A stretch of 50,852 nucleotides of DNA from Solirubrobacter phytolaccae (lineage in GTDB: Bacteria; Actinomycetota; Thermoleophilia; Solirubrobacterales; Solirubrobacteraceae), in contig NZ_JAPDDP010000054.1 in NCBI RefSeq assembly GCF_027587195.1, positions 1-50,852 of the forward strand, read 5' to 3'. Positions within the stretch are counted from its first letter, which is position 1. Each line of letters opens with the position of its first letter. The position numbers were made by a program, and so were the translations under genes. The notes beneath the pieces are model-generated. The model did not search any database, was not told the DNA's origin, and saw only the letters and a program-made list of their open reading frames with translations. Below are positions 11,768 through 32,254 of this stretch, piece by piece.

Positions 11768-14700
11768 CTACGGCTGCGTGGTTGACAGCGTGAACGTGAG
11801 CGTCTTGGCGTAGGTGCCCGTGCGGAGCGGGTCACTGGCCTTGACGAGCTGCGAGAACTCCAGGTCGACGCGGTCATTGGAGACCGGGCCGTTCCACACG
11901 AGGAGGTTCAGCAGCGACCCGACGTTGTTGAACGCCGTGCCGGTGTTGGCGGCGTTGCGGGCCCGGGCCTGGAGCGGCTCAGGGAGGACGAACGCCCCGT
12001 TCACCAGCCGGCCCGGGTTCGCTCCCGGATCGGACACGCTCAGGAGCGCGTCGCCCGCCGTGGAGGTCACCGTGGCCTTCGTGGCGGCCAGGTAGGTCCG
12101 CGTGACGCCGGGCGTGAACGCGCCGAACGGCGCCGGCCCGTCGAGTGCGAGCGACAGCGTGGCCGGCACGGTGCCGCCGACGGTCCCGTCGCCCGAGCTC
12201 GCCTTGATCGGCACGTCGAACGCCTGCACCTCGTTCTGCGCGTTGACGAACGAGACGAGCAGCGAGGCGCCGCTGCTGAGCTGGGCGGCCGTCGCCCCGG
12301 TCAGCGTGAGCGACTGCGTGCCGGCGGTGACCGGGACCGTGCGCGAGGCCTTGATCGCGCCCATCATGTCCGGCGCCCACGGCGGCGTCGAGCCGTCGGC
12401 GGCGCCGCACGCGGAGAGCCCGTAGTCCGGCGCGGGGTCCGTCGCCGGGTTGCAGCTCGTGTTCCACACCCGCGTGTAGCTCTTGTTGCCGCTGATCGGA
12501 TCGACGGCGTACAGGAACAGCCGGGCGGTGCCGGCCGCGCCCGCGGTGACGTTGAGGTTCACCGTGGTGCCACTCACCGTCGCCCCGTTGATCTTCAGCC
12601 CGCGCGCCTCGGGTGCCGGCTCACGGCCGGAGAGCGGGACGCCGTTGCGCGCCGACTGCGCGATCGTCTGCGGTGAGGCCGCCGAGTCCAGGTTCGGATG
12701 CGACACGTTCGGCGTGCGCGGCGTCGTCGGGAAGCTCGCCGGCGGCGTGTAGCCCGGCATCGTCGCGCGGCCCCACTTGTACGGATCCGACTGCACCGAG
12801 CCGAACGTCGACCACGCCAGGCGCGTGCTCATGTCGATGTGGCGCAGCACGGTCGAGCCGGTGCCCGGTGTGTTGTCGTCGTTGTCGTACGGCGTGATGT
12901 TGAGCCCGAAGCCGCTCGGGTCGACCGCCGCCGGCAGGACCGCCATCGGGATCTTGACCTCGAGGTTGTACCCGCCGCCCGCGTACGCGTGCGAGGTGCC
13001 GACGTCGTTGGTGCCGACCCACTTGGCGGTGGACGCGACCCGCACGCCGGGGGCGTTCGGGGCGTCGTCGACGGTCGCCGCGAGCGGGCCCGTCGAGAAG
13101 CCCTGGTGGTTGTCGGCGTCGCGCGCCCAGCACGGGCCGTTCGCCCCGTTGCCGTTCGTGTTGGACGGGTCGTTGGTGAACGGGAAGATCCCGAGCTTGA
13201 ACGTGTTCGCCGTGTCCTTGAGGACCTGCGAGGCGGTCCCGCGCGGGTCGATGATGATCTCGACCGAGTCCGCGAGCCAGTGCGCGACGCACTCCTCGGG
13301 CTTGACGGCGTAGCTCTGGAAGTCGTCCTGGACCCGGATGAAGAAGTACAGGTCGTCGCCGGAGCGGGTGACCTTCGCGTACGTCTTGTTGGCGCCGGAC
13401 GTGCCGCAGTCGACGCCGAGCGGATCGCAGTTGCGGGTGGAGCCGTTGGGCTCCCACTTGCGGCCGATCTCCAGCGACTCGCCGCTGTACTCGCCGGCGG
13501 CCTCGGTGCCGTCGAGCGTGGGTGCGCCGGTCGCGCCCGGGACGGAGGTCTTGGGCACGATGCCCAAGGTCAGGTCCTCGAAGCCGGATCCGCCGCCGCT
13601 GTAGCTCGTGGTGATGCGGACGCTCACGTTGCCGCTCTGCGCGTCGGCGGCGTTGGCCGTCGTCGGCAGTGTGGCGTTGGTGTAGGAGTTCGAGACCTGG
13701 AAGTTGACCGTGGTCTCGGCGCCGGGCGCGATGCTCGGGTACGGCTTGGAGGTCGCGTCGGCGGTGACGTTGGCCGGCAGCGTCAGGGCGACCGTGCCGC
13801 TCTGGGGCGCGTCGGACCAGTTGTGGACGACGACCGGCAGCGTGAACGTCTCACCCACGGCGGTCGTCTGGACGGCGCCGGAACGGCCGAGCCGGCGCGC
13901 GAGCGGGGCCGTGTTCTCGACCCACTGGTCGTACTCGGCCCAGTTGCCCCAGCGCTGGAAGCGGCCCTCGACGGGCGAGACCACGCGCACGAGCTGGTCC
14001 GTGTAGCCCTTCGCGGCGCCCGCGGTCCAGGTGGCGGAGACCTTGTAGTTGGCGTTGACGGGCGCGGTCGCGCTCGGCGTCACCGTGAACGTGACGGTCT
14101 GCTCGGTGGTGCCGACGGCGGGCGTCGGCTTGGTCGCGGTGTCGACCGTCCACCCGGCGGGCACGTTCAGCGTCGCCGTGCCGGCGGGGATCGTCCCCGA
14201 CGGCGCCTTCACGTGCAGGGTGGCCTGGAACGGCGCGCCGGGCACGTTGTAGAACTTCGAGAACGTCAGGTACTCGAGCGTGCCGAGCGGGAGTCCGCCC
14301 GGGTCGGGCTTGACGGCGCCGTAGAGGATCGCGTCGTCCTTGCCGGCCGCGGAGTTGAGCGAGCCGTCCGGGTTCACGTTGGGCTGGAACGGGACGACGT
14401 TGCCGGTCTGGCCGAAGCGCGAGCAGCCCGTCGGCTGGACGGTGTTCCACATCACGCGGCTCTGCGTCGGGTAGGCGCGCGCACCCTCCTGGGCGACCTG
14501 CGCCCACGTCTTCGGCGTGCCCATCGGCTGGCCCTGGACGTTGCCGGGCGGCCACAGGTACGGCGAGGCGTAGCCCGTCCACACGCCCGCGACGTTGTCG
14601 AGGTTGGGCGTGGTCGCGGTGCCGGGGGTGAAGCCCGTGGTGCAGTCGGCGGTGGTGGTGGTGCCGCCCGTGCCGCCCGCGTTCCCGCCCGAGAAGACCT

Positions 14701-15292
14701 TCTTGACCTGCCAGGTGGAGAGCGCGTTCGGTCCCGTCAGCTGCTCCGGGAACATCGCCGGATCGGCCGCGGCCTTCATGCCCTCCCAGATGTACCGGCC
14801 GGCCTGCTGGTGGTTGCCGTGGCCGGCGTTCAGGGTGGGGGTGAAGCCGATGTAGACGTCGGGCTGGGTCATGCGGATGATCCGCGTGACCCGCCGCAGC
14901 GTCTCCGTGCCCCAGAAGTACTGGGTCAGCGGCGCGCTCTGGTTGTAGAAGAAGTCGACCGAGTCGATGTTGAAGATGTCGATCGTGCCGCTGCGGTAGT
15001 GCGCGACGCGGTCCTCGTTCTCCCGCCGCAGGCCGAGCTCCGGGCCGATCTCGGTGCCGGTGGCGTTGCCGCCGCCCTCACCGCGCGTGACCATGATGAT
15101 CCCGCAGCGCACGTCGTACCGCTCATGCCACACGCCGCACGGGCCGATGATGCTCGTGTCGTCATCGGGGTGGGCCCACTCGCCCATGACGTTGATCTTC
15201 ACCGCGCTGGACGCGGTGTAGGGCGCGGCGGTGGCCGCCGGGGCCGCCCAGAGCCCGATAGCTATGGCCAACAACACGCCAAAACGCCTCAC
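11768..15292 (-). CDS. secreted PIG-L/LmbE-type deacetylase with CBM9-like and C-terminal modules
   Basis: A precursor of about 1174 residues. A signal peptide (VRRFGVLLAIAIGLW...ATAA) leads into a PIG-L fold: metal ligands in AHPDDD (His41) and GHGNH (His158, His161). This family removes N-acetyl groups from GlcNAc-containing substrates. Next come beta-sandwich NEW3-like segments (PANVTADATSKPYPSIAPGAETTVNF), then a CBM9/DOMON-like sugar-binding domain (about residues 590-800, GAPTLDGTEAAGEYSG ... ADSVEIIIDPRG). Residues about 1039-1174 form a module shared with the DUF1080 protein at 26240. GTG 15292 is chosen over GTG 15325 because GGGAG lies just before it. A secreted glycan deacetylase is inferred; the exact substrate is unknown. 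Confidence 0.88.
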   Translation of the reverse strand: MRRFGVLLAIAIGLWAAPAATAAPYTASSAVKINVMGEWAHPDDDTSIIGPCGVWHERYDVRCGIIMVTRGEGGGNATGTEIGPELGLRRENEDRVAHYRSGTIDIFNIDSVDFFYNQSAPLTQYFWGTETLRRVTRIIRMTQPDVYIGFTPTLNAGHGNHQQAGRYIWEGMKAAADPAMFPEQLTGPNALSTWQVKKVFSGGNAGGTGGTTTTADCTTGFTPGTATTPNLDNVAGVWTGYASPYLWPPGNVQGQPMGTPKTWAQVAQEGARAYPTQSRVMWNTVQPTGCSRFGQTGNVVPFQPNVNPDGSLNSAAGKDDAILYGAVKPDPGGLPLGTLEYLTFSKFYNVPGAPFQATLHVKAPSGTIPAGTATLNVPAGWTVDTATKPTPAVGTTEQTVTFTVTPSATAPVNANYKVSATWTAGAAKGYTDQLVRVVSPVEGRFQRWGNWAEYDQWVENTAPLARRLGRSGAVQTTAVGETFTLPVVVHNWSDAPQSGTVALTLPANVTADATSKPYPSIAPGAETTVNFQVSNSYTNATLPTTANAADAQSGNVSVRITTSYSGGGSGFEDLTLGIVPKTSVPGATGAPTLDGTEAAGEYSGESLEIGRKWEPNGSTRNCDPLGVDCGTSGANKTYAKVTRSGDDLYFFIRVQDDFQSYAVKPEECVAHWLADSVEIIIDPRGTASQVLKDTANTFKLGIFPFTNDPSNTNGNGANGPCWARDADNHQGFSTGPLAATVDDAPNAPGVRVASTAKWVGTNDVGTSHAYAGGGYNLEVKIPMAVLPAAVDPSGFGLNITPYDNDDNTPGTGSTVLRHIDMSTRLAWSTFGSVQSDPYKWGRATMPGYTPPASFPTTPRTPNVSHPNLDSAASPQTIAQSARNGVPLSGREPAPEARGLKINGATVSGTTVNLNVTAGAAGTARLFLYAVDPISGNKSYTRVWNTSCNPATDPAPDYGLSACGAADGSTPPWAPDMMGAIKASRTVPVTAGTQSLTLTGATAAQLSSGASLLVSFVNAQNEVQAFDVPIKASSGDGTVGGTVPATLSLALDGPAPFGAFTPGVTRTYLAATKATVTSTAGDALLSVSDPGANPGRLVNGAFVLPEPLQARARNAANTGTAFNNVGSLLNLLVWNGPVSNDRVDLEFSQLVKASDPLRTGTYAKTLTFTLSTTQP

Positions 15293-15336
15293 GTCGACTC
15301 TCCCTCTCTCACGGAGTGCCCTCACACTCGCACCCC

Positions 15337-15368
15337 TTCGAACGACATCGAACAGAGCTGCCGTTCGA
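15337..15368. promoter_or_regulatory. three GTTCGA half-sites between divergent genes
   Basis: TTCGAAC (15337-15343), TCGAAC (15348-15353) and GTTCGA (15363-15368) lie in the gap between the deacetylase gene and the gene at 15408. The last two form an inverted pair 9 bp apart. GTTCGAA recurs at 16082-16088 before the deoR gene. Function inferred only from arrangement. Confidence 0.3.
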
Positions 15369-15393
15369 CGATATTCCTGTTGTCAAGTCCAGC

Positions 15394-15407
15394 TACCCTC
15401 GGAATTC
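15394..15407 (+). promoter_or_regulatory. -10-like box of the gene at 15408
   Basis: TACCCT (15394-15399) lies 8 nt before the GTG at 15408. A GGAA in the gap could be a weak ribosome-binding site, so leaderless and short-leader starts are both possible. Confidence 0.35.
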
Positions 15408-16073
15408 GTGCGCTTCCTCCTCGGATTCCTCGTCCTCGCGTCGCTGGCGCTCCCCGCGAGCGCGCAGGCCGCGCCGCTGCTGACCGTCGACCTGGCGCGT
15501 GAGTCGGTGCGCTACGGCGGCGCGCACCGCGTGGAGGGGACGCTTACCGACGCCACCGTGCCGCTGGCCAACCAGGAGGTCATCCTCGAGGGCCGGCGCT
15601 ACCCGTACGAGGGCTCCTATCGCGTGATCGAACGCGGCACGACCGACGCCGAGGGCAGGTTCCGCTTCGACGCCGAGCTGGACCGCAACCACCGCCTGCG
15701 CGTCGTCGCGCCGGCGCAGACGCTCACCTCCCAGCGGCTGCAGGCCTACACGTTGCCGGGGTTCGAGCTCTCCTTCCGCGCCATCTCGCCCGGCGTCGTC
15801 CGGCTCTACCAGCGCTACACCGTGCCCAAGAACGTGCGGCTCAGCGCTCCGACGCTCTTCTACCTGGGCAAGCGCGGCGCCTCGAAGGCCTCGCTCCGTC
15901 GCACGGGTGAGCTCAAGCGCGTGAAGGCGGGCCGCTACACGTCGCAGGTGACGGTCACGCTGCCGTCGGGCTGGAACGGTGCGTTCCGCTACGCGTCGTG
16001 CTTCCGGGCCTCCACGGGCTCCGGCATGGGCGACCCGAACCAAAGCTGCCCCAAGCTCAGGCTCCAGTTCTAG
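15408..16073 (+). CDS. secreted protein with Ig-like fold, unknown function
   Basis: A 221-residue protein with a signal peptide (residues 1-23, VRFLLGFLVLASLALPASAQA). Residues about 28-110 look like a carboxypeptidase-regulatory/CNA-B-like beta-sandwich: VRYGGAHRVEGTLTD, NQEVILEGRRYPYEGSY, TTDAEGRFRFDAELDRNHRLRV. The remainder is strand-rich, with two cysteines near the end (YASCFRAS, NQSCPKL) probably in a disulfide. It is divergent from the secreted deacetylase and directly upstream of the sugar operon, so it may belong to the same envelope or glycan function, but nothing in it shows catalysis. Confidence 0.75.
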   Translation: MRFLLGFLVLASLALPASAQAAPLLTVDLARESVRYGGAHRVEGTLTDATVPLANQEVILEGRRYPYEGSYRVIERGTTDAEGRFRFDAELDRNHRLRVVAPAQTLTSQRLQAYTLPGFELSFRAISPGVVRLYQRYTVPKNVRLSAPTLFYLGKRGASKASLRRTGELKRVKAGRYTSQVTVTLPSGWNGAFRYASCFRASTGSGMGDPNQSCPKLRLQF

Positions 16074-16094
16074 CTTCCGTCGTTCGAAGCTGAT

Positions 16095-16114
16095 ACAAGT
16101 CCGTCCGGTCTTGT
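16095..16114. promoter_or_regulatory. probable DeoR operator
   Basis: The 20-bp sequence fits ACAAGnCCGnnCGGnCTTGT, a near-perfect inverted repeat (16 of 20 positions symmetric). It sits between the stop at 16073 and the deoR start, directly before a TAGTGT -10-like box (16119-16124), a typical place for a repressor. A related sequence lies at 26198-26217 before the DUF1080 gene. Confidence 0.6.
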
Positions 16115-16133
16115 TCACTAGTGTTGCTCGCCG

Positions 16134-16889
16134 ATGACGCTCCTCCCGGCACAGCGCCGGAACGAGATCCTGCGCGCCGTCCGTGACGGACAGGCGCACG
16201 TCGGCCACCTCGCCGAGGTGTTCGGCGTGTCGGAGATGACGGTGCGCCGCGATCTGCACCGGCTGGCGCGCGACGGCAAGCTCGAGCGTGTGCACGGCGG
16301 CGCGGTGCACACCGCGGGCCAGGAGCCGGGCTTCTCGCAGATCGAGGTCGAGCGCTTCGACGTGAAGGACCGGCTCGGGGCCGCGGCCGCCGCACTCGTC
16401 GAGGACGGCCAGACGGTGATGATCGACATCGGCACCTCGACGCTCCAGATGGCGCGTCACCTGCACGGCAAGCAGATCACGGTCGTCACGACCAACCTCG
16501 CGATCGTCGAGGAGCTCTTGCCGGACCCGGGGATCGAGCTCGTGCTGCCGGGCGGGATCGTCCGCCGCAACTACCGCTCGCTGGTCGGCGTGCTGGCGGA
16601 GGACTCCTTGCGGCAGCTCAAGTCCGACATCGCCTTCCTCGGGACGAGCGGCGTGGACGGCGAGATGGGCGTGTGGGACACCACGATGGTCGAGGTGCCG
16701 ATCAAGCGGCTGATGATCGGCGGCACCGACTGCGCGGTGCTGATCGCGGACGTCGCGAAGTTCGCGATGACCGGGATGGTGCGGGTATGCGGGCCGGAGT
16801 CGCTGGACCATGTCGTGACGGACGCGCCGTTGCCGGCCTCGGTGCGCTCGGTCGTGGATGCGAACGGAATCGAGGTGACGATCGCATGA
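16134..16889 (+). CDS. DeoR/GlpR-family transcriptional regulator
   Basis: A 251-residue regulator. The N-terminal winged helix (residues about 6-57) contains the family signature helix-turn-helix VGHLAEVFGVSEMTVRRDLHRLARDGKLERVHGGA. Residues about 75-235 are the DeoR C-terminal sugar-phosphate-binding domain, with the DIGTST loop and the LPGGIVRRNYRSLVG stretch. Such proteins usually repress a catabolic operon until a phosphosugar binds. First gene of the operon; its stop overlaps the GH4 start (ATGA). Self-control through the inverted repeat at 16095-16114 is likely. Confidence 0.93.
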   Translation: MTLLPAQRRNEILRAVRDGQAHVGHLAEVFGVSEMTVRRDLHRLARDGKLERVHGGAVHTAGQEPGFSQIEVERFDVKDRLGAAAAALVEDGQTVMIDIGTSTLQMARHLHGKQITVVTTNLAIVEELLPDPGIELVLPGGIVRRNYRSLVGVLAEDSLRQLKSDIAFLGTSGVDGEMGVWDTTMVEVPIKRLMIGGTDCAVLIADVAKFAMTGMVRVCGPESLDHVVTDAPLPASVRSVVDANGIEVTIA

Positions 16890-18226
16890 AGCTCACGATC
16901 GTCGGCGGGGGCGGCTTCCGGGTGCCGCTGGTGTACGGCGCGCTGCTGGACCGCAAGGAACGGCTGGGGCTGAGCGAGGTCGTGCTCTACGACATCGACG
17001 ACACGCGCCAGGACCGGATCGGGCACGTGCTGGACGGGCTCGCGGAGGAGAAGGGCACCACGCTGCCGTTCCGCACGACCACGGACCTCGTGGACGCGGT
17101 GCAGGGCGCGGACTTCGTGTTCTCCGCGATCCGCGTCGGCCAGCTCGAGGGCCGCGTGATCGACGAGGACGTGCCGCTCGGGATGGGCGTGCTCGGCCAG
17201 GAGACGACCGGGCCGGGCGGCATCTGCTTCGCGCTGCGGACGATCCCGGTGATGACCACGCTCGCCGAGACGATGGCCGCGCACGCGCCCAACGCGTGGC
17301 TGATCAACTTCACGAACCCGGCGGGCATGGTCACCGAGGCCCTGCAGCGCGTGCTCGGGGACAAGGTCGTCGGCATCTGCGACTCGCCGTCGGGCATGTG
17401 CCGGCGCGTCGCCGCGGTCATGGGCAAGGACCCCAAGGCGCTGTGGTTCGACTACTTCGGCCTCAACCACCTCGGCTGGCTCAAGGACGTGCGCGACGGC
17501 ACGGGCGCGCCGCTGCTGGACGAGCTGCTCGCCGACGAGACGGCGCTCGCGAAGTTCGAGGAGGGCCGGCTGTTCGGCGGCGACTGGCTGCGGACGCTCG
17601 CGATGCTCCCGAACGAGTACCTCTACTACTTCTACTACGCAGCGGACACGGTCAACGCGATCCGCGGCGGAGGCTCGCGCGGCGCGTTCCTGCTCCAGCA
17701 GCAGCGCGAGTTCTACGCGCGCAACGGGGCGAATCCCGAAGCCGCGCTGGCCGACTGGCGCGCCACCCGGCACGACCGCGAGCGCACCTACATGGCCGAG
17801 GCGCGCAGCGCGGCGGGCCAGGACGGCGAGCACGACATCGAGGAGAACTCGGGCTACGAGAGCGAGGCGATGGCCGTCGTGGACGCGATCGTCAACAACA
17901 CGCGCGAGGTGCTCATCCTCAACACCGCGAACCGGAGTGCGCTGCCGTTCCTGGACGAGCGCGCCGTGGTCGAGGTGCCGTGCATCGTCGGGCGCAGCGG
18001 GCCGGTCCCGGTCGCGGTCGGCGAGGTCCCCGCGCACGCGGCTTCCCTCATCTCGACCATGAAGGACGTCGAGCGCACGACGATCGAGGCGGCGCTGACC
18101 GGCTCCGAGCAGCTCGCGATCAAGGCGCTCGCGCTGCACCCGCTCGTGCCGTCGGTAAACACGGCGCGCGAGATCTTCGACGGGTACCGCCGTCGGCTGC
18201 CCGAGCTGGCGGAGACGTTCGCCTGA
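16886..18226 (+). CDS. GH4 family NAD-dependent (phospho)glycosidase
   Basis: A 446-residue glycoside hydrolase family 4 enzyme. The Rossmann fold begins at residue 2 (LTIVGGGGFRVP). Family landmarks are INFTNPAG (140-147), the metal-binding cysteine in GICDSPSG (Cys165) and the metal-binding His in GLNHLGW (His195). GH4 enzymes cleave by oxidation-elimination at C3 with NAD+ and a divalent metal. The four residues from the cysteine usually track substrate class; CDSP is closer to the CDMP/CNVP type of 6-phospho-glycosidases than to CHSV alpha-galactosidases, so a 6-phospho-beta-glucosidase-like activity is the best guess. No PTS genes accompany it; a kinase and an ABC importer do. Confidence 0.9.
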   Translation: MKLTIVGGGGFRVPLVYGALLDRKERLGLSEVVLYDIDDTRQDRIGHVLDGLAEEKGTTLPFRTTTDLVDAVQGADFVFSAIRVGQLEGRVIDEDVPLGMGVLGQETTGPGGICFALRTIPVMTTLAETMAAHAPNAWLINFTNPAGMVTEALQRVLGDKVVGICDSPSGMCRRVAAVMGKDPKALWFDYFGLNHLGWLKDVRDGTGAPLLDELLADETALAKFEEGRLFGGDWLRTLAMLPNEYLYYFYYAADTVNAIRGGGSRGAFLLQQQREFYARNGANPEAALADWRATRHDRERTYMAEARSAAGQDGEHDIEENSGYESEAMAVVDAIVNNTREVLILNTANRSALPFLDERAVVEVPCIVGRSGPVPVAVGEVPAHAASLISTMKDVERTTIEAALTGSEQLAIKALALHPLVPSVNTAREIFDGYRRRLPELAETFA

Positions 18227-19134
18227 TGAGCGTCGATCTCGCCTGCGCCGAGCCCGCGTTCCTGGACCTGACGATGGTCGGGCTGGACCGGATCCCCAAG
18301 CCCGGGGAGGAGCGCCTCGCGCAGGACTTCCTGCGCTCGCCGGGCGGCGGCGCGATCACCGCCGTCGGCGCCGCGCGGCTCGGCCTCTCCAGCTCGCTTA
18401 CCAGCCCGCTCGGCGACGACGCCGTCGGGATGCTGCTGCGCACGCTGCTCGCCGACGAGGGCGTGCGCTGGGACGGGCGGCTCGTGGAGCGCACGCCGGT
18501 CACGGTGATCATGCCGACCGACGGCGACCGGGCGATGGCGACCTTTGACCCGGGGGAGAGCGTGACCGCCACGGAGCTCGGTGCTGTCGAGCCCCGCGCG
18601 GTCGTGCTGTCGATCCCCCGTTTGCCCCTCGCGCCGGCGGGCGCACGCACCTACGTCTCGGTTGGTGACCTGGACGCGCGTGCGCTCGCCGGTCGGGAGC
18701 TCCCCGCGGAGCTCTCGACCGCGCGGGCACTGCTGGTGAACGAGCGCGAGGCGCTGCTGCTCAGTGGCGCGCCGGACGCGCAGACCGCGGCGGCGCAGCT
18801 CGCGCGGGCGGCGCCGCTCGCGATCGTGACTTTGGGCCCGGAAGGCGCACTTGCCGCCGGGGCGGAGGGGACGGTCCACGTCGAAGGCGTGGCCGTCGAG
18901 GCAGTGGACACGACGGGCGCCGGCGACCTGTTCGCCGCCGCCTACGTGTGGGCCGACCATTGGGGTGCGGCGCTCGAGCAGCGCCTGCGCTGGGCGGTCC
19001 TGTATGCATCACTGTCGGTTCGGGTCGCCACTGCGGTAGCGGGGGCGGTGACGTTGAGGGCGCTCTTGGAGGAGGGCGCGGGATACGGGCTGACGTCGCC
19101 AGTGCGACAGCCAGCGATGAAGGAGGATCAGTGA
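18226..19134 (+). CDS. PfkB/ribokinase-family sugar kinase
   Basis: A 302-residue carbohydrate kinase overlapping the GH4 stop by one base (TGATG). The glycine-rich substrate motif is SPGGGA (residues 38-43) and the ATP/anion-hole signature with the catalytic base is DTTGAGDLF (228-236, Asp234). The middle holds VNEREALLL, the usual NxxE element, at about 171-179. It would phosphorylate an imported sugar or a sugar released by the GH4 enzyme. The exact substrate is not readable. Alternative starts are unlikely because of the tight coupling. The stop overlaps the binding-protein gene by 4 bp. Confidence 0.9.
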   Translation: MSVDLACAEPAFLDLTMVGLDRIPKPGEERLAQDFLRSPGGGAITAVGAARLGLSSSLTSPLGDDAVGMLLRTLLADEGVRWDGRLVERTPVTVIMPTDGDRAMATFDPGESVTATELGAVEPRAVVLSIPRLPLAPAGARTYVSVGDLDARALAGRELPAELSTARALLVNEREALLLSGAPDAQTAAAQLARAAPLAIVTLGPEGALAAGAEGTVHVEGVAVEAVDTTGAGDLFAAAYVWADHWGAALEQRLRWAVLYASLSVRVATAVAGAVTLRALLEEGAGYGLTSPVRQPAMKEDQ

Positions 19135-20477
19135 AGGCGAAGAGTGTGCTGGCTGCGTTTGCTCTGTCGGCGCTCGTCGCCGGCTGCGGCGCGGCGCCCG
19201 GTGGCGACAGCAACGAGGACAAGCCCGCCTCGACCCCGGCCGCGACGGCCGAGGCCAAACCCGACATCGCCAAGGCCGGCGACGTGACGCTCAAGGTCTG
19301 GGACCAGAACGTCCGCGGCGGGCAGAACGCGGAGATCGAGGAGCTCAACAAGCAGTTCGAGGCCAAGTACCCGAACGTGAAGATCGACCGCACGAAGAAG
19401 TCCTTCGAGGACCTGCTGAAGACGGTCAAGCTCGCGGCTTCAGGCGCGGACGCGCCCGACGTGGTGCAGGCCAACCAGGGCCGCGGCGTGATGGGTGAGA
19501 TGGTCAAGGCCCAGCTGCTGCGTCCCGTGACCGACTACGCGAAGGTCTACGACTGGGAGTCGCGCTACTCCTCGACGCTCCTGGACCTGAACAAGTTCTC
19601 CGCCGACGGCGCGGAGTTCGGCTCCGGTGATCTGTACGGGCTCTCCCAGATGGGCGAGATCGTGGGCGTCTTCTACAACAAGGAGAAGGTCGCCACGCCG
19701 CCGACGACGTTGACCGAGTTCGAGGCGTCGTTGCAGCAGGTCAAGGACGGCGGCGACACGCCGATCATGTTCGGCAACCTCGAGAAGTGGCCCGGCATCC
19801 ACAACTTCGAGAGCGTGCTCGGCCAGACGGCCGACAAGCAGGCGATCCGCGACTTCGTGTTCGCCCGCGACGGCGCCTCGTTCGACAACCCGGAGTTCCA
19901 GGCCGGCGCGACGAAGATCAAGGAGTGGGTCGACAAGGGCTACTTCAACAAGAACTTCAACGGCACGGACTACGACCCGGCGTGGCAGTCGTTCGCGAAG
20001 GGGAAGTCGGCGTACCTGATCGCGGGCACGTGGGTGACCGCGGACCTGGCCGACCAGATGGGCGACAACGTCGGCTTCATGCTGATGCCGGGCGCCGACG
20101 CCAACGCGCCGGTCTCGCTCGGCGGTGAGGACCTGCCGTTCACGATCACGACGGCTTCCAAGGTCCCGGACGTCGCTTCCGCCTACATCGACTTCCTCAC
20201 GGACGCGAACGCCGCCAAGGTGCTCGTGGACACGAACAACCTGCCGGCCATGAAGGGCGCGCCCGCGCCTGCCGGGGGCGTGTCGGTGGACGTGGCCAAC
20301 GCGTGGCAGAAGCTCAACGACGCCGACGGCGTGATCCCGTACCTGGACTACACGACGCCGACGTTCTACGACGACATCAGCGGCGCCATCCAGGAGCTGC
20401 TGGCGGGCAAGCAGTCGCCGACGGAGTTCACCGCCGGCGTGCAGAGCGCGTTCGACAAGTGGTCGGAGTCGCGCTGA
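19131..20477 (+). CDS. ABC sugar transporter substrate-binding lipoprotein (CUT1)
   Basis: A 448-residue extracellular solute-binding protein, family 1. The lipoprotein signal ends in the lipobox LVAGC with Cys19 as the lipidated residue, followed by a Pro/Ala/Asp-rich linker (residues 20-55). The mature part shows TLKVWDQNVRGGQNAEIEELNKQF and later YLIAGTWVTADL, typical of maltose/oligosaccharide-type binding proteins. GTG 19131 is set by a strong AAGGAGG site 4 nt upstream and overlaps the kinase stop. It binds the sugar outside the membrane and hands it to the two permeases that follow. Confidence 0.94.
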   Translation: MKAKSVLAAFALSALVAGCGAAPGGDSNEDKPASTPAATAEAKPDIAKAGDVTLKVWDQNVRGGQNAEIEELNKQFEAKYPNVKIDRTKKSFEDLLKTVKLAASGADAPDVVQANQGRGVMGEMVKAQLLRPVTDYAKVYDWESRYSSTLLDLNKFSADGAEFGSGDLYGLSQMGEIVGVFYNKEKVATPPTTLTEFEASLQQVKDGGDTPIMFGNLEKWPGIHNFESVLGQTADKQAIRDFVFARDGASFDNPEFQAGATKIKEWVDKGYFNKNFNGTDYDPAWQSFAKGKSAYLIAGTWVTADLADQMGDNVGFMLMPGADANAPVSLGGEDLPFTITTASKVPDVASAYIDFLTDANAAKVLVDTNNLPAMKGAPAPAGGVSVDVANAWQKLNDADGVIPYLDYTTPTFYDDISGAIQELLAGKQSPTEFTAGVQSAFDKWSESR

Positions 20478-20478
20478 C

Positions 20479-21408
20479 GTGGGTGTAGCGGCCGCGCCAC
20501 TGGAAGCGGCCGCCCGTGAGGGTTCGCCGGGCGAACGTCCGCCCGGCGAGCCGCGTCTCGTCGGCTACCTGTACGTGCTGCCGGCGTTCGCGGTGTTCGC
20601 CGTGTTCGTGCTGGTGCCGCTGGTGCACGCGGCGTGGATCTCGCTGTGGGACTGGAACGGGCTGCCGAACTCGCCCGCCACCTGGGCCGGGATCGGCAAC
20701 TACACGGACGTCTTCACCGACGAGCAGCTGCGCAGCGCGTTCGTGCACGCGCTCATCCTGCTGGTCTTCTACGCCGTGCTGCCGATCCTGATCGGCCTGC
20801 TGCTGGCGGGCGTGATGGCGCGGGCGCGCGTGCGCGGGCTGGCGCTGTTCCGGACGATCCTGTTCCTGCCGCAGGTGATCGCGATGGTCGTCGTCGCGAC
20901 GATGTGGAAGATGATCTACGACCCCGAGAACGGCGCGCTCAACCGCTTCCTCGGCTGGTTCGGGATCGAGGGCAAGTCGTGGCTGGGAGACTTCTCGCTG
21001 GCGCTGCCGTCGGTCGGGCTGATCGGCACGTGGGTGTACTTCGGCCTGGCGATGGTGCTGCTCACGGCGGGCGTGCAGAAGATCCCGCCGTCGCTGTACG
21101 ACGCGGCGCGCGTGGACGGCGCCGGGCCGTTCCGCGAGTTCCTGGCGGTGACGCTGCCGGGGCTGCGCGGGGAGATCGCGGTCGCGCTCACGCTGACGAC
21201 GATCTACGCGCTGCGCAACTTCGACCTCGTCTACATCACCACGCAGGGCGGCCCCGGCGACTCGACGACCGTGCCCGCCTTCCAGGTCTTCTCGCGCGCG
21301 TTCCAGGGCAGCCAGGTCGGCTCGGCCGCCGCCGTCGGCATCACCCTGACGTTCGTGATCTTCCTGATCTCGTTCGCGATCAACCGCGTCGCGGAGCGGT
21401 CGACATGA
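20479..21408 (+). CDS. ABC sugar permease, MalF type
   Basis: A 309-residue membrane protein with six expected spans; the first is VGYLYVLPAFAVFAVFVLVPLVHAAW. The EAA loop that docks the ATPase is YDAARVDGAGPFREFLAVTLPGLRGEI near residue 210. Forms the translocation channel with the next gene's product. GTG 20479 is one base past the binding-protein stop. A proline/glycine-rich cytoplasmic N-terminus (residues 1-26) precedes span 1. Confidence 0.94.
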   Translation: MGVAAAPLEAAAREGSPGERPPGEPRLVGYLYVLPAFAVFAVFVLVPLVHAAWISLWDWNGLPNSPATWAGIGNYTDVFTDEQLRSAFVHALILLVFYAVLPILIGLLLAGVMARARVRGLALFRTILFLPQVIAMVVVATMWKMIYDPENGALNRFLGWFGIEGKSWLGDFSLALPSVGLIGTWVYFGLAMVLLTAGVQKIPPSLYDAARVDGAGPFREFLAVTLPGLRGEIAVALTLTTIYALRNFDLVYITTQGGPGDSTTVPAFQVFSRAFQGSQVGSAAAVGITLTFVIFLISFAINRVAERST

Positions 21409-22226
21409 CTTCGCGCGCGGAGCAGTCGCTCGGCTACGTGATCCTCGGCGTGTTCTCGCTGATCGCGCTGCTGCCGGTCGCCGGGATCGTCTTCACGGCG
21501 CTGCAGGACCCGGACGGCTTCGCAGCCTTCGGCTCGATCGACGGCCTGCACTTCTCGAACTTCACGACCGCCTGGGATGAGGCGAACTTCGGCACCTACC
21601 TGAAGAACAGCGTCTTCGTGACCGTGGTCGTCGTGTCGGTCTCGAGCGTGCTGTCGATCCTCGCCGGCTACGCGTTCGGGCTCATGCGCTTCCGCGGCTC
21701 GACCGTCCTGTTCTACGTGTTCCTGCTCGGGCTGATGGTCCCGATGGAGGCGATCATCGTGCCGCTGTACTACGAGATGCGCGACAACTGGAAGCTCCAG
21801 AACACCTACTGGTCGATCATCCTGCCGCAGATCGCGACGTCGGTCGCGTTCGGGACGTTCTGGATGCGCACGTACTTCCGGTCCGTGCCGCGGTCGTTGG
21901 TCGAAGCCGCACGGCTCGACGGCGCCTCCTCGTGGTTCACCCTGTGGCGCGTGCTGCTGCCGCTCGCCAAGCCCGCCGTGCTGACCATGGGCGTGCTGCT
22001 GTTCATGTGGACCTGGAACGAGTTCCTGCTCGTGCTCGTGATGATCACGGACGACTCCAAGCTGACGGCGCCGCTCGGTCTGAGCGTGTTCCAGGGGCGC
22101 AACACGTCGGACCTGACGCTGATGGCGGCGGGCTCGGTGATCGTGGCGCTGCCGGTCGTGATCGTGTACGTCTTCCTCCAGCGGCACTTCATCCGCGGGA
22201 TGCTCTCAGGGGCGGTGAAGGGCTGA
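21405..22226 (+). CDS. ABC sugar permease, MalG type
   Basis: A 273-residue, six-span inner-membrane permease. The EAA motif VEAARLDGASSWFTLWRVLLPLAKPAV lies at about residues 166-192. The ATG overlaps the stop of the first permease (ATGA). The C-terminal signature VFLQRHFIRGMLSGAVKG is typical of MalG-like CUT1 subunits. It pairs with the preceding permease. Confidence 0.95.
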   Translation: MTSRAEQSLGYVILGVFSLIALLPVAGIVFTALQDPDGFAAFGSIDGLHFSNFTTAWDEANFGTYLKNSVFVTVVVVSVSSVLSILAGYAFGLMRFRGSTVLFYVFLLGLMVPMEAIIVPLYYEMRDNWKLQNTYWSIILPQIATSVAFGTFWMRTYFRSVPRSLVEAARLDGASSWFTLWRVLLPLAKPAVLTMGVLLFMWTWNEFLLVLVMITDDSKLTAPLGLSVFQGRNTSDLTLMAAGSVIVALPVVIVYVFLQRHFIRGMLSGAVKG

Positions 22227-23236
<1,010 letters not shown>

Positions 23237-23240
<4 letters not shown>

Positions 23241-23755
23241 TCGTCTACGCCATGAGCGTCTCGACCGATGGCTACATCAAGGACGCCGAAGGCGGCTTCG
23301 ACTTCGCGGAGACGTCCGACGAGGTGTTCCGCTGGTGGATCGACTTCCAGCGGCGGTCGGTGCTCGACCTCTACGGCCGCGCGATCTACGAGGACATGCG
23401 CTATTGGGAGACCCTGGCCGACGACGCAACGGATGCTCACCGCGACTTCGCCGACGCCTGGCAGAAGACGCCGAAGATCGTGGTCTCGACGACGCTCGAG
23501 TCGGTCGAGCCGTACGCGCGGCTGGTCCGCGAGCCGGCGCACGTCCCGTCCGCCGAGGGCATGGTGACGATCGAGGGCGCTTCCCTCGCCGCGTCGATGA
23601 TCGACCGCATCGACGAGTTCTGGCCCGTCGTCTACCCGACCACGGTGGGCGGCGGCACGCCGTTCTTCCCGGCGGGCGTGCGGCTCAACCTGAAGCTCGT
23701 GGAGACCAGGCGCTTCGACTCAGGTGCGGTCCTGCTGCGCTATCAGCGCGCGTAG
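23237..23755 (+). CDS. RibD C-terminal/dihydrofolate reductase-like protein
   Basis: A 172-residue protein of the DHFR/RibD-C superfamily common in actinobacteria: an N-terminal strand VYAMSVSTDGYIKD, a helix with YGRAIYEDMRYWE, and the NADPH-binding end PVVYPTTVGGGTPFFP. True folate or riboflavin activity is not indicated, and most relatives have no known substrate. GTG 23237 overlaps the ATPase stop as GTGA, so it is translated as the last gene of the sugar operon. Whether a reductase step belongs to the sugar pathway is unknown. Its 3' end overlaps the convergent nucleotidyltransferase by 36 bp. Confidence 0.85.
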
Positions 23756-24397
23756 GTTCGCCGCCGCGTAGTCGAGGTCGATGCCGGTGTAGTCGTCGGG
23801 CAGGCCGCCGAGGTAGACCGCACGGGCCTTCGCGATCGCCACGTGGGGGAAGCGCGCGTGGGCCCACGCGGCGGCGTCGCCCTTCGGCGCGATCGCGCCG
23901 GTCACGAGCGAGTAGTAGATCCGGCAGAGCGCGAGGATCGCGTTCGTCGGCTCCTCGTGCAGGCCTTCCAGGATCGGCTCGACGCTCGCGAGCATCGCGG
24001 CGCGCAGCCGGTCGGGCGGGATCGCGGCGAGCAGGGTGCCGGGCGGCGGCCCGGCCAGCGCGTGGTCGGCGAGCAGCACCTTGTGGATGAGGATCGCGAG
24101 GTCGGGGTCCTTCCCGCTCGCCCACGTGTCGGGCAACCACGCGCCCCACTGGAAGTCCACGTACGTCGGCGCCTGGTGGTGCGCGACGAGCGTCACCTCG
24201 ACGGCCCGGCCCTGGATCGCCCGCAGGCCGTCGAACAGGCGCTGCTTCTCGTCGTCGGTCGTGCGCCGTTTGAGCACGGCGAGCACGTCGAGGTCGCTGC
24301 GCGGCGCCAGCCCGCCGTGGACGGCCGAGCCGAACAGGTAGACGCCGAGCGGGTCGAGCTCGGCGAGCAGCTTCAGAACGGGTTCGAGCTCGTGCAC
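23720..24397 (-). CDS. AadA-like nucleotidyltransferase
   Basis: A 225-residue protein with the nucleotidyltransferase signature GSAVHGGLAPRSDLDVLAVL (residues 23-42): Gly-Ser plus the metal-binding Asp35 and Asp37. The C-terminal half (about 110-225) is the helical DUF4111-type domain found in ANT(3'')/aminoglycoside adenylyltransferases (NAILALCRIYYSLVTGAIAPKGDAAAWA). It may adenylylate an aminoglycoside, but chromosomal relatives often have no proven resistance role. GTG start at 24397; no mobile element adjoins it. Confidence 0.85.
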   Translation of the reverse strand: MHELEPVLKLLAELDPLGVYLFGSAVHGGLAPRSDLDVLAVLKRRTTDDEKQRLFDGLRAIQGRAVEVTLVAHHQAPTYVDFQWGAWLPDTWASGKDPDLAILIHKVLLADHALAGPPPGTLLAAIPPDRLRAAMLASVEPILEGLHEEPTNAILALCRIYYSLVTGAIAPKGDAAAWAHARFPHVAIAKARAVYLGGLPDDYTGIDLDYAAANLRALIAQQDRT

Positions 24398-24401
24398 GAC
24401 C

Positions 24402-24415
24402 TAGAGTCTGTCGGG
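24402..24415 (+). promoter_or_regulatory. -10-like box of the gene at 24416
   Basis: TAGAGT (24402-24407) lies 8 nt before the ATG at 24416, with no ribosome-binding site between, so the mRNA is probably leaderless. Confidence 0.45.
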
Positions 24416-25084
24416 ATGCCTCGTCAACTGGCGGAGATCATGGCCGAGTACGCCGAGCACGAGGCGTCGCGCTTCTCCGCGCCCGACGCGGTGTGGGAGC
24501 CGACGGTGTTCACGCGCGACGACGCCGGGCACGTGCGGGCGCACGAGTTCCGCGAGCCCGACGACGACTCGGCGACGCGCCGGGTGCAGGGCATCGTGGT
24601 GGACTCGCGGGCGGCGGTGACGGGGCTGCTCCTGATGGTCTTCCGGCCCGAGCAGCTGCTGGTCACCACCACTGACGGCGCAACGCACATCGCCGCGAAG
24701 GCGCCGGTCGTGCGCGCGCTGGACGGGCCGCCCCAGCTGGCGGACTGGGAAGAGGTCACGCCCGGCGACGAGGTCGCGACGTTCGCGATCAACCTGCTGC
24801 GGAGCGCGCTCGGGCAGGACACGCTCTCCCAGCGCGCGGGTGCGCTCGAGGAGCTGTCGATGATCCGGCGCGCGCTCGACGGGTTCATCCGGCGCGTCGA
24901 CGCCGACGGCCACCTGCGGCTGCACTACGAGGACGAGGTCGTGCTGGAGGCGGATCGGCTCGCGCTCGTGGAGCTCGCGCGCGACGCGCTGGACCTCGCG
25001 GTCTCCCGCGGGCGCGTGGACAAGCAGATCGACGACGGCTTCACGCTCAAGCGGGTTCCGACCCCGCCGGCGGACCTGATCTGA
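24416..25084 (+). CDS. conserved-looking protein, unknown function
   Basis: A 222-residue soluble, acidic protein. Residues about 1-110 are strand-rich (WEPTVFTRDDAGHVRAHEF, then GIVVDSRAAVTGLLLMVFRPEQLLVTTTDG), and about 115-222 mostly helical (DEVATFAINLLRSALGQ, ALEELSMIRRALDGFIRRVDADGHLRLHYEDE). No signal peptide, membrane span or catalytic motif. Its first codons are set by the -10-like box; frame upstream overlaps the nucleotidyltransferase on the other strand. The 3' end overlaps the Lrp gene by 38 bp. Function unknown. Confidence 0.7.
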   Translation: MPRQLAEIMAEYAEHEASRFSAPDAVWEPTVFTRDDAGHVRAHEFREPDDDSATRRVQGIVVDSRAAVTGLLLMVFRPEQLLVTTTDGATHIAAKAPVVRALDGPPQLADWEEVTPGDEVATFAINLLRSALGQDTLSQRAGALEELSMIRRALDGFIRRVDADGHLRLHYEDEVVLEADRLALVELARDALDLAVSRGRVDKQIDDGFTLKRVPTPPADLI

Positions 25085-25490
25085 GGACGATCGTCGTCTC
25101 GGTGTCGGCCGCGCCGTGGCGCAGCCGCAGGGTCCGCAGCAGCATGTCCAGCTCGGCGGTGTCGCGGCACGCCACGCGCAGCTGGTAGTCCGGCGCGCCG
25201 GTGAGGTGGAGCACCTCGATCACGGGGTGCAGCTGGGAGGCCTCGATCGCGAACTGGTCGGAGTCGACGCCGGGGGAGAGCGTGATGCCGACGAGCGCCT
25301 CCAGGTTGCGCCCGCCCGCGGCGGGGTCGATCAGCGCGGTGAAGCCGAGGATCACGCCGGCCTGGCGCAGCCGGCGGACGCGGTCGGCGGCGGCGTTCGC
25401 GCTCAAACCCACCGCGGCTCCGAGCTCCCGCCACGACAAACGCCCATCTTCCCGGAGCAGCCTGAGGATCTCGCTGTCGGTCGGGTCCAT
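25047..25490 (-). CDS. Lrp/AsnC-family regulator
   Basis: A 147-residue regulator. The N-terminal helix-turn-helix is ILRLLREDGRLSWRELGAAVGLSANAAADRVRRLRQAGVI (residues about 8-47); the remainder is the amino-acid-binding RAM/ACT-like domain (VGITLSPGVDSDQF, IEVLHLTGAPDYQLRVACRD). Such proteins form octamers and respond to amino acids. It is divergent from a LysE-type exporter with 70 bp between, the classic arrangement for a regulator controlling the adjacent exporter. A GACAAT box 7 nt before the ATG may be the -10 element. Confidence 0.92.
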   Translation of the reverse strand: MDPTDSEILRLLREDGRLSWRELGAAVGLSANAAADRVRRLRQAGVILGFTALIDPAAGGRNLEALVGITLSPGVDSDQFAIEASQLHPVIEVLHLTGAPDYQLRVACRDTAELDMLLRTLRLRHGAADTETTIVLRSGPPAGSEPA

Positions 25491-25560
25491 GGCTGCGATT
25501 GTCTCAGTCTTTGGCCGCGACAGCTTGTCTTTCGCGGCGGGCGGCGCAAGAACATGCGGC

Positions 25561-26157
25561 ATGGATGCGTTGCTCGCCGGACTGCTTGCCGGACTCGCCA
25601 TCGCCATGCAGGTGGGCGCGGTCAGCCTGCTGCTGATCGAGGCGTCGGTCGTCGCCGGGCCGCGCAAGGGGCTGGCGGCGGGCATGGGCGTGGCGACGGT
25701 CGACTTCGCCTACGCGATCATCGCCGGGTTGGCGGGCGGCGCCGCGGGCGCGGTGCTGGCCGGGCACGAGGGCGAGATCAAGCTGGTCGCGGCGATCGTG
25801 CTCGGCGTGATCGCGGTGCACGGGCTCGCCGGGCTCTGGCGCGATCCCGAGGTGCGCGAGGTCGAGGCGGGCGGGAGCGTGCGCGCCCACTACGCGCGCT
25901 TCCTCGCGATCACGGCGGTCAACCCACTGACGATCGTGTCGTTCGCGGCGGTCGCGGCGGCGATGTCGCTCGACGGCTGGCGGGAGACCGTCGCCTTCGT
26001 GGCCGGCGTGGGGGTGGCGAGCGCGGGCTGGCACCTCGTGTTGACACTTGCCGCCGGTCACGCGGGACGCTGGGTCACGCCGGCGATCCGGCGCTCGCTC
26101 GCGATCGGTGGGCGCGTGCTCGTCCTCGCGATCGCCCTCCACCTGGCGGTCAGCTGA
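25561..26157 (+). CDS. LysE-family amino acid exporter
   Basis: A 198-residue membrane protein of the LysE/RhtB superfamily with six predicted spans. The first span and its loop (GLLAGLAIAMQVGAVSLLLIEASVVAGPRKGLAAGMGVATVDFAYA) hold the typical G-x-x-x-Q-V-G-A and P-R-x-G-x-x-A-G-x-G features. The loop with NPLTIVSFAAV in span 4 is also diagnostic. Exports an amino acid or small metabolite. Control by the divergent Lrp/AsnC regulator is inferred. Confidence 0.88.
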   Translation: MDALLAGLLAGLAIAMQVGAVSLLLIEASVVAGPRKGLAAGMGVATVDFAYAIIAGLAGGAAGAVLAGHEGEIKLVAAIVLGVIAVHGLAGLWRDPEVREVEAGGSVRAHYARFLAITAVNPLTIVSFAAVAAAMSLDGWRETVAFVAGVGVASAGWHLVLTLAAGHAGRWVTPAIRRSLAIGGRVLVLAIALHLAVS

Positions 26158-26197
26158 CTTACCGACAGAAGCGGCAGGAATTGCTCGCCGATCAGGT

Positions 26198-26217
26198 ATA
26201 AGTCGGTCTGTCCTTTG
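26198..26217. promoter_or_regulatory. operator-like sequence related to the deoR site
   Basis: These 20 bases match the site at 16095-16114 at 13 positions and share the AAGT-C-GTC core and spacing, 23 bp before the DUF1080 gene. It is less symmetric than the deoR site. A separate direct repeat GACAGAAG(C/T)GG flanks it at 26164-26174 and 26217-26227. Confidence 0.4.
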
Positions 26218-26239
26218 ACAGAAGTGGAGGGGGAGAGAG

Positions 26240-28090
26240 ATGCAGCGCAAGTTGGTCGCCTGCGTGACGGGTTTGTTCGCCCTGGCGGCGGCACCTGCCG
26301 CGCACGCGCAGTACACGGCACCCGCGCCTGATCCCGGGTTCCGATACATCTTCGACGGAACCGCGACCGGCGCGGATTCGTCGTTCGACAAGTGGGCGTT
26401 CGCCGCGGGCACGGCTGCGCAGTCGCGCCCGGCGTCCCAGGGCGGTCAGGGCCAGGCAACGCTGAACACCGCCACCGGCGCCATCGACGTCGGCGCCTCG
26501 CCGTTCGGTGCCTACTGGTACCCGGTCAAGGCCTTCGGCGACGCCACGTTCCGCATCCAGTACACGGTGCAGGACACGCCGACGTCCACGCCCAACGGCG
26601 GCGTGATGATCCGCACGCCGGAGATCCGCTACACGGGCGCCAACACCACCGAGGTGCTGGCCCAGAAGCCGACCGGCTTCAACTTCGACGTCTGCCCGGG
26701 CGCGATCCCGCTGTGCGGGCTGACGGCGCCGGCGCCGTCGACCACCTACAAGTGGCCGGGTTCGACGCCGAACCTGCCGCCGGCCTTCGAGTACACGGGC
26801 GGCTACTGCGCGCGTCAGACCGCCGCGGGCGTCTACAACGTCAACGGCCTCAACGGCCAGCCGCTGACGGTCAACGGCAACGCCAACAACCACCAGCACT
26901 GGACGCAGGTCGCGTGCGGCCACGAGGTGCAGATCAACGAGTCGCTGACCGGTGGCGGGCCGCAGCCGTCGACGGACCCGATCAAGACGGGCTCGATCTA
27001 CAACTTCCGCAACCTCAACGCCAAGCAGTCGGGTACCGCCAAGCGCCTCGTGAAGGGCGTCTGGCACGAGATGGAGATCCGCACCATCGGCCAGCAGTAC
27101 ACGGTCCTGGTCGACGGCCAGATCATCAACCAGTTCGACAACTCGATCCCGAAGACGGCCTCACGCGCGGGTGACCCGCCGACGATGGCGCGCCAGCTCG
27201 CCGCGGGCTACCTCGGCCTGCAGACGCACGGCGGCAACGACCGCATCTCCTACCGCGAGATGCAGGTCAAGGAGTTCGCCGCGGCGGACCTCCCGGTCAA
27301 CACCACGGCCCCGTCCGTGTCGGGCACCGGCTTCCAGGGCCAGGCGCTGCGCTGCAACCACGGCGCGTGGAACGCCGCCGCCGGCAGCACGCGCTGGGTC
27401 ACGTGGTACGCGGCCAACAAGATCCCGGAGAACCACCCGCGCTTCCGTGCGCCGAACCAGCTCGACTACAACAACACCACCACCCCGGCCGAGACTGAGC
27501 ACGGCACGTCCGCGCTGACGTGGCTGGACGCGCAGATCGTCGGCACCGGCGACACCTACACGCCCACCGCGGCCGAGGTCGGCAAGTCGGTCTACTGCCA
27601 GGTCAGCGTCGACAACGCGGGCGCGACCGTGTTCAAGACCGCGCTCGCGCCGGAGATCATCACGGCGACCAACGTCGACGTGCCGGTCGGCGGCTCCGTG
27701 TCGGCGACGCTCGCCCTGTCCCTCGGCGCGCCGGCCACGTTCGCCGCGTTCACCCCGGGCGTGACGAAGAACTACGACGCCGACGCCGCCGTGACCGTCA
27801 CCTCGACGGCCGGCAACGCGACCCTGTCCGTGGCCGACCCGGGCGCGAACCCGGGCCACCTCGTCAACGGCGCGTTCTCGCTCCCGCAGGCGCTGCAGGC
27901 GCGCGGTTCGGCGTCCGGCGCGTTCGCCGATCTCGGTGCGAGCCCGCTCGTCGTGCGCACCTACACCGGCCCCGTGTCCGGCGACACCACCCCGGTCACC
28001 TACCGCCAGCGCATCGCGTCCACCGACGCCCTGCGCACCGGCACCTACAGCAAGACGCTGACGCTCACGCTCGCGACAACGGAGCCGTAG
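26240..28090 (+). CDS. secreted DUF1080 (3-keto-disaccharide hydrolase-like) protein
   Basis: A 616-residue precursor with a signal peptide (1-23, AAPAAHAQ). Residues about 30-355 form a concanavalin-like DUF1080 domain: FRYIFDGTATGADSSFDKW, NGGVMIRTPEI, VKGVWHEMEIRTIGQQYTVLVDGQIINQF, NDRISYREMQVKEF. Relatives hydrolyse 3-keto-glycosides or bind glycans. An Ig-like domain follows (about 360-475, with LRCNHGAW and TYTPTAAEVGKSVYCQVSVDN). Residues 484-616 match the C-terminal module of the deacetylase at 11768. A GGAGGGGGAGAGAG ribosome-binding site sets the ATG. Shared module and operator link it to the sugar region. Confidence 0.88.
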   Translation: MQRKLVACVTGLFALAAAPAAHAQYTAPAPDPGFRYIFDGTATGADSSFDKWAFAAGTAAQSRPASQGGQGQATLNTATGAIDVGASPFGAYWYPVKAFGDATFRIQYTVQDTPTSTPNGGVMIRTPEIRYTGANTTEVLAQKPTGFNFDVCPGAIPLCGLTAPAPSTTYKWPGSTPNLPPAFEYTGGYCARQTAAGVYNVNGLNGQPLTVNGNANNHQHWTQVACGHEVQINESLTGGGPQPSTDPIKTGSIYNFRNLNAKQSGTAKRLVKGVWHEMEIRTIGQQYTVLVDGQIINQFDNSIPKTASRAGDPPTMARQLAAGYLGLQTHGGNDRISYREMQVKEFAAADLPVNTTAPSVSGTGFQGQALRCNHGAWNAAAGSTRWVTWYAANKIPENHPRFRAPNQLDYNNTTTPAETEHGTSALTWLDAQIVGTGDTYTPTAAEVGKSVYCQVSVDNAGATVFKTALAPEIITATNVDVPVGGSVSATLALSLGAPATFAAFTPGVTKNYDADAAVTVTSTAGNATLSVADPGANPGHLVNGAFSLPQALQARGSASGAFADLGASPLVVRTYTGPVSGDTTPVTYRQRIASTDALRTGTYSKTLTLTLATTEP

Positions 28091-32120: not shown

Positions 32121-32254
32121 CAGACCCTCCACAGAGATTGACCCGCGCGCTCGTCCTCATCGAAGCGCAGCCGCAGTGTCTCCCTGCTCCCTAAGCGGGT
32201 CCTGAAGGATCACGTAAGGGAACCTTCAGGTTCGCGCGAGCCTGTACGAACGGA

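Follow-up and report, generated by a model that had tools for sequence, protein, structure and literature searches.

A C-terminal module on 145 proteins of Solirubrobacter phytolaccae, a candidate WxL-like surface anchor with a WxLIP-like partner family

Here we describe an unnamed protein domain, hereafter the module, found on 145 proteins of the soil actinobacterium Solirubrobacter phytolaccae. It was noticed in a 50,852-nucleotide stretch of DNA (contig NZ_JAPDDP010000054.1, analysed at its full length and hereafter the window), in which a PIG-L/CBM9 protein and a DUF1080 protein have similar ends. Judged by sequence comparison, the last ~135 residues of these two proteins are one domain, found once each at the C-terminus of 145 proteins of the genome, most of them of an exported type. 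It is, in gene neighbourhood and co-occurrence, tied to a family homologous to WxL-interacting proteins (WxLIP, DUF916/DUF3324). We propose, with a probability of roughly 0.6, that the module anchors proteins to the cell surface non-covalently by their C-terminus, in the manner of WxL and together with a WxLIP-like partner. If it is such an anchor, the surface-held enzymes of Solirubrobacter would be readable from sequence, the WxLIP-like family would be a named, testable partner, and the module could be fused to enzymes as a display tag.

One domain at the C-terminus of 145 proteins

Alignment of the 140-residue C-termini of the two window proteins gave a score of 366, compared with 38.8 ± 7.2 (maximum 82) in 1000 shuffles. 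The shared module of the original prediction is thus borne out, and its coordinates were correct to within a few residues. The remaining parts of the two proteins aligned with a score of 66, a figure without a shuffle control, and their Pfam domains differ, being PIG-L and CBM9-like in one and 3-keto-disaccharide hydrolase in the other. In the genome, which comprises 7.74 Mb in 169 contigs (the window being one of them), the module search scored 150 of 192 initial candidates, and 148 matched the query. Three of these rows were dropped, namely the N-terminal portion of a module already in the count, a frame judged spurious and a remnant of 62 residues. The other 145 are full modules of 116–146 residues, every one C-terminal, ending in proline and followed directly by a stop codon. 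Each host has one module: 144 are single, and one has two profile matches that we interpret as a single copy interrupted by an insertion. Pairwise identity has a median of 59% and ranges from 26% to 91%, and in an alignment of 82 modules five positions are invariant (Y31, Q109, G120, Y122 and P135).

When the two window proteins and 82 representatives were scanned, the module had no Pfam or NCBIfam match above cut-off, in agreement with the earlier view that it corresponds to no named domain, and no characterised domain emerged from either library. The Pfam families P_T4SS_TraN, SpaA_2 and SlpA_C each matched one member (E 0.002–0.005, TraN under its own cut-off) and were rejected. Among solved structures no sequence match was found, a single ribosomal match at E 0.74 being rejected.

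The original prediction had proposed a profile search to see which enzyme types carry the module and whether it is always C-terminal. The hosts found are diverse, with many hydrolases among them, so that the term portable proved apt for 145 copies across many unrelated proteins. Using Pfam at E ≤ 1e-6 for 143 hosts (excluding two proteins that consist of the module alone; the 25 top families of each third of the set), we counted ThuA in 16, CBM_6 in 15, GSDH in 14, M14 peptidase in 13, 3-keto-disaccharide hydrolase in 8, rhamnosidase in 7, S15 peptidase in at least 6 and amidase in at least 5. By a home-made rule, a signal-peptide-like start lies within 110 codons of the start of the open frame in 130/145 hosts versus 17/143 internal control stretches; most hosts do not, on this count, look cytoplasmic. 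An extended search, run without a control, was positive for 13 of the remaining 15 hosts, and the count used stays at 130/145.

Structure prediction, also suggested at the outset, returned a confident model. AlphaFold2, given the window module at 27683–28087 and 66 other aligned sequences, yielded an all-beta model with a mean predicted local distance difference test (pLDDT) of 94.6 and a predicted template modelling score (pTM) of 0.84, so that the module is, with confidence, predicted to be a beta-sandwich. The best fold matches in the PDB were CsuA/B (7zl4_B, Z 9.1, 3.0 Å over 125 residues) and TLP-1a (9ikj_A, Z 7.9, 3.7 Å over 132 residues); the best Foldseek E was 2e-3. In fold the modelled module may resemble archaic pilins of the chaperone-usher type (CsuA/B) and fibre proteins of the TasA type, at middling Z values of up to 9.1, yet it differs from them in sequence, with 14% identity to CsuA/B and 17% to TLP-1a. 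These matches would indicate only the type of fold, not function. No WxL entry was among the top 50 Foldseek and VIA matches, which is not evidence of absence.

Such a predicted beta-sandwich would also suit a substrate- or glycan-binding (CBM-like) domain that would need no protein partner to keep exported enzymes close to polymers. Carbohydrate-active or carbohydrate-binding hosts are numerous, as the counts for CBM_6, ThuA, 3-keto-disaccharide hydrolase and rhamnosidase illustrate, and 105/145 modules contain tryptophan. We nevertheless consider this explanation unlikely: the module also sits on M14 and S15 peptidases and on amidases, with no obvious common substrate; it occurs in single copy and strictly at the C-terminus; tryptophan is at none of the five invariant positions; and the link with WxLIP-like genes would be left unexplained.

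The link to a WxLIP-like family

Genes of a second family, the partner family, adjoin the four small W-T-L proteins that are the most distant module copies. The partner profile was built from four neighbour genes, three taken from beside module copies and the fourth adjoining the genome's WxL-like gene. It finds five members in the genome, including one in the window (Table 1), which is convergent with the module gene at 26240–28090 and lies 3320 bp from it. In the relative G002, the closest match (88%) of the module of the DUF1080 protein likewise has a partner gene at 3.3 kb. Four of the five genome partners have a module within 3.4 kb, and ~13% of the genome is equally close to one. Two of them flank a small module-only gene at 119 and 219 bp, and one is on the opposite strand, 79 bp away from its module. 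The small module-only protein was found near two partner genes in 6/6 Solirubrobacter genomes examined (of seven), the first partner being ~1 kb from the small gene in one of the six.

The association extends beyond the genus, where 10/11 module copies have a partner gene on their own strand within 4 kb. Among 30 partner matches outside the genus, 8 have a module nearby and a further 11 a Pfam WxL domain above cut-off; no match has both. In the class sample of 299 genomes, all 10 genomes with a module are among the 29 with a partner gene (Fisher 1.5e-11, relatedness ignored), and module and WxLIP-like genes occur together in 7/7 of the module genomes outside the genus, three of the seven with small proteins only there.

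The family relationship of the partner was assessed with profile comparisons. All four WxL-adjacent partners tested pass the Pfam WxLIP_PGBD cut-off. An hhalign comparison of nine Solirubrobacter partners, none of them a seed, with six WxL-adjacent ones, including four that are Pfam-positive, gave a probability of 96.8 and a score of 75.7 over 199 columns, compared with at most 24.6 in 30 column shuffles. The partner family is thus homologous to WxLIP (DUF916, DUF3324 and a transmembrane helix; PF06030, PF11797) over ~200 columns, and it includes Pfam-positive WxLIPs beside WxL domains. From this homology we infer a two-domain beta build for the partner. A single-sequence AlphaFold2 model of the window partner, with a mean pLDDT of 51, was too poor for a fold search, and no solved structure matches the partner by sequence. 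By eye, a C-terminal transmembrane helix is present in the partners of G031, G081 and G012 and in one of the five here (contig C136).

Table 1. Positions of the two module-bearing proteins and the partner-family gene in the window
Feature	Position	Strand	Description
C-terminal module of PIG-L/CBM9 protein	11771..12184	-	138 aa; delimited by alignment and genome family; ends ...LRTGTYAKTLTFTLSTTQP-stop
PIG-L/CBM9 protein, host part	12185..15325	-	signal-peptide-like start, PIG-L deacetylase domain, CBM9-like domain
DUF1080 protein, host part	26240..27682	+	signal-peptide-like start, 3-keto-disaccharide hydrolase domain (PF06439)
C-terminal module of DUF1080/3-keto-disaccharide hydrolase protein	27683..28087	+	135 aa; mean pLDDT 94.6 (AlphaFold2); ends ...LRTGTYSKTLTLTLATTEP-stop
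WxLIP-like partner-family gene	31368..32132	-	254 aa; signal-peptide-like start, no C-terminal transmembrane helix (by eye)

Comparison with WxL systems

WxL domains are thought to tie proteins to the cell surface in lactobacilli and enterococci. They have two W-x-L motifs (PMC9772566), and nearly all reports of them are from Lactobacillales and Bacillales (PMC10599100). Their gene clusters consist of CscA with DUF916, a small CscB and a large CscC with a C-terminal WxL2 (PMC1534035), and the WxL2 of CscC, ~130–140 residues long, is C-terminal on large multidomain proteins (PMC1534035, PMC9772566). The module is like WxL2 in its C-terminal position (145/145) and in its size on large proteins. 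WxL also exists as a small protein with nothing but the domain, and has a DUF916/WxLIP gene in its cluster (PMC1534035, PMC9772566), an arrangement that the module may share. The small module-only gene near partner genes in the six Solirubrobacter genomes recalls the cscA/cscB/cscC arrangement (PMC1534035), although the large module proteins of Solirubrobacter are mostly dispersed. Among class WxL proteins, 26/29 also end in proline (of 30 loci, a fragment was set aside); LLWTLSTGP-stop terminates two of the proteins, compared with LTFTLSTTTP-stop in the module.

WxLIP has been proposed to bind WxL and thereby hold it on peptidoglycan (PMC10599100). Given this model and the likeness of the clusters, we propose the same job for the module. 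The original prediction had named surface retention, sorting and glycan binding as candidate roles, of which surface retention is favoured by the link to the WxLIP-like family. The host would be exported via its signal peptide, the module would fold outside the cell, and a WxLIP-like protein and the small module-only protein would together bind the module and keep the enzyme at the cell wall. In an AlphaFold2 model, a hairpin strand of WxLIP completes the WxL sandwich (PMC10599100); that a partner strand may complete the sheet of the module is a guess by this analogy. Still more tentatively, and with some doubt on our part, ~145 enzymes might be displayed through donor-strand-type anchoring, with the module as an incomplete pilin-fold domain, the missing strand supplied by the WxLIP-like protein and the C-terminal proline part of the recognised end. 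This would be a monoderm counterpart of chaperone–subunit pairing and would build an enzyme-coated surface or fibres. If the proposed anchoring is true, it would extend WxL-type anchoring to a soil lineage and to a far larger scale, with 145 module copies in one genome versus at most 21 CscB and CscC genes per genome in a 2006 table of 16 genomes (PMC1534035).

Several observations weigh against this proposal. No W-x-L motif is found in any of the 145 modules, which typically have A-x-L and F-T-L at the motif positions; PF13731 retrieves no module in this genome; and hhalign of the module against the WxL domains of the class gave a probability of ~2% (28 sequences, full and trimmed). A class WxL profile scored above 5 bits for 21/145 modules versus 4/435 shuffles. 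The reverse search stayed at shuffle level, with 2/29 WxL domains versus 1/290 shuffles for the module profile or 5/290 for a combined profile, and in the module-to-WxL direction there are shuffles that score higher. Identification of the module as WxL was therefore rejected: because the PF13731 scan, hhalign and the two-way profile searches gave no significant match, we do not file it as WxL. The module differs from WxL in these respects; it may work like WxL, while WxL homology is not established. As for the partners, all five in this genome fall under the Pfam WxLIP_PGBD/HBD cut-offs, a difference from WxLIP seen in the Solirubrobacter partners tested, and four of the five, including that of the window, lack a transmembrane helix (by eye). 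Of the 30 partner matches outside the genus, 11 are near neither a module nor WxL, and three of the eight that adjoin a module are profile seeds, chosen for lying there. Four of the 11 module copies outside the genus are small W-T-L proteins that lack the terminal proline and end about four residues earlier. Lastly, there are five partner genes for 145 modules, and nearly all module genes lie apart from a partner gene. This dispersal is expected for a shared anchor, but also for an absent link.

The strict C-terminal position, the terminal proline, invariant in the genus, and the many hosts per genome would also fit a sorting signal for a dedicated exporter or processing enzyme (T9SS- or PEP-CTERM-like) that is removed or cross-linked at export. 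The module is, however, predicted to be a folded domain of ~120 residues, and the ends that were read show no LPXTG, hydrophobic helix or basic tail. One sortase was found in the genome; a dedicated exporter or processing enzyme was not searched for. The lineage is moreover monoderm, and we regard a sorting signal as quite improbable.

The genome also encodes a WxL-like protein of 213 residues (L133, G000:C136:94635-97985; PF13731 21.8 bits, cut-off 25) beside a WxLIP-like membrane protein, and the two adjoin a module gene. WxL-like and module systems may thus coexist in this genome. In the class, WxL domains above the PF13731 cut-off were found in 23/299 genomes and lie beside a WxLIP-like gene in 11, in contrast to the near restriction of WxL to Lactobacillales and Bacillales given in PMC10599100. 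A literature search pairing Solirubrobacter with WxL returned no paper, though an earlier description of the domain may exist.

Selection, exchange between genes and distribution

The final proline is encoded by CCG in 123 modules, CCC in 15, CCA in 5 and CCT in 2, and all three stop codons are in use. Over 60 nt past the stop the identity is 0.30, versus 0.74 over the last 60 nt of the module (3000 pairs). The fixed end is therefore not simply the result of recent copying, and the near-random identity past the stop, together with the varying codons of several invariant residues, makes selection on the protein likely. For 58 hosts with a clear counterpart in the genome, the best match of the module is on that same counterpart in only 11. 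The nearest neighbour of a module is in the same species for 66% of modules, compared with 50% (maximum 62%) with shuffled labels in this uneven sample. Either exchange between genes is likely or the resolution is low.

The low agreement between host and module would also be in line with a cassette that stabilises folds or is chiefly selfish and has moved between genes by recombination, without a common anchoring role, as would the stop-codon use of module genes, which is unlike that of other genes, as if 3' ends had been swapped. We find this very unlikely, since selection appears to act on the protein, the terminal proline is kept at pairwise identities down to 26%, and the partner link would again have no explanation. 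The stop codons themselves are TAG 92, TAA 25 and TGA 15 in module genes (n = 132) and TGA 36, TAG 21 and TAA 10 in other genes at module loci (n = 67). TGA is rarer after module genes (Fisher 3e-10, genes picked by length and codon composition), reflecting either exchange of 3' ends or avoidance of leaky TGA read-through past the fixed C-terminus.

Among the best 80 of 254 matches, the named relatives with the module are all Solirubrobacter: S. taibaiensis, S. soli, S. deserti, Solirubrobacter sp. CPCC 204708 and 'Ca. Solirubrobacter pratensis'. The terminal proline is present in 77/78 named loci of other Solirubrobacter (66 distinct modules), a set biased to conserved ends because one of the two search patterns sits near the end. 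The lone module without it (S. taibaiensis, JAPDDQ010000017.1) has an end that reads as frameshifted. All seven genus genomes searched, including that of the window, have between 69 and at least 102 matches; in G002, 107 of 108 matches extend to the last or second-last residue (136 or 135) of the 136-residue query. Elsewhere in the family, 3/18 genomes have 1–2 matches, as does 1/16 in other families of the order. The module was found in 10/299 genomes of the class sample (14 candidates scored per genome), three of the genus and seven others with 1–3 copies, and in 4/396 genomes of the phylum sample (10 candidates per genome), all within the family.

Seven of the 11 copies outside the genus end in proline. 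The four small W-T-L relatives match the module at E 1e-15, reciprocally too, and all four have W-T-L at the first motif site, where the module has A-x-L. By these matches, the module is homologous to small secreted module-only proteins. A small module-like protein in G023 (region L140:2165-3262), ending in ...TAAPQTP-stop, lies between a module gene and a partner; it was judged by eye and missed by the profile, and the module family may accordingly exceed our count. In two sister genera (L140, G023; L141, G014) the module terminates proteins that, by eye, look HtaA-like.

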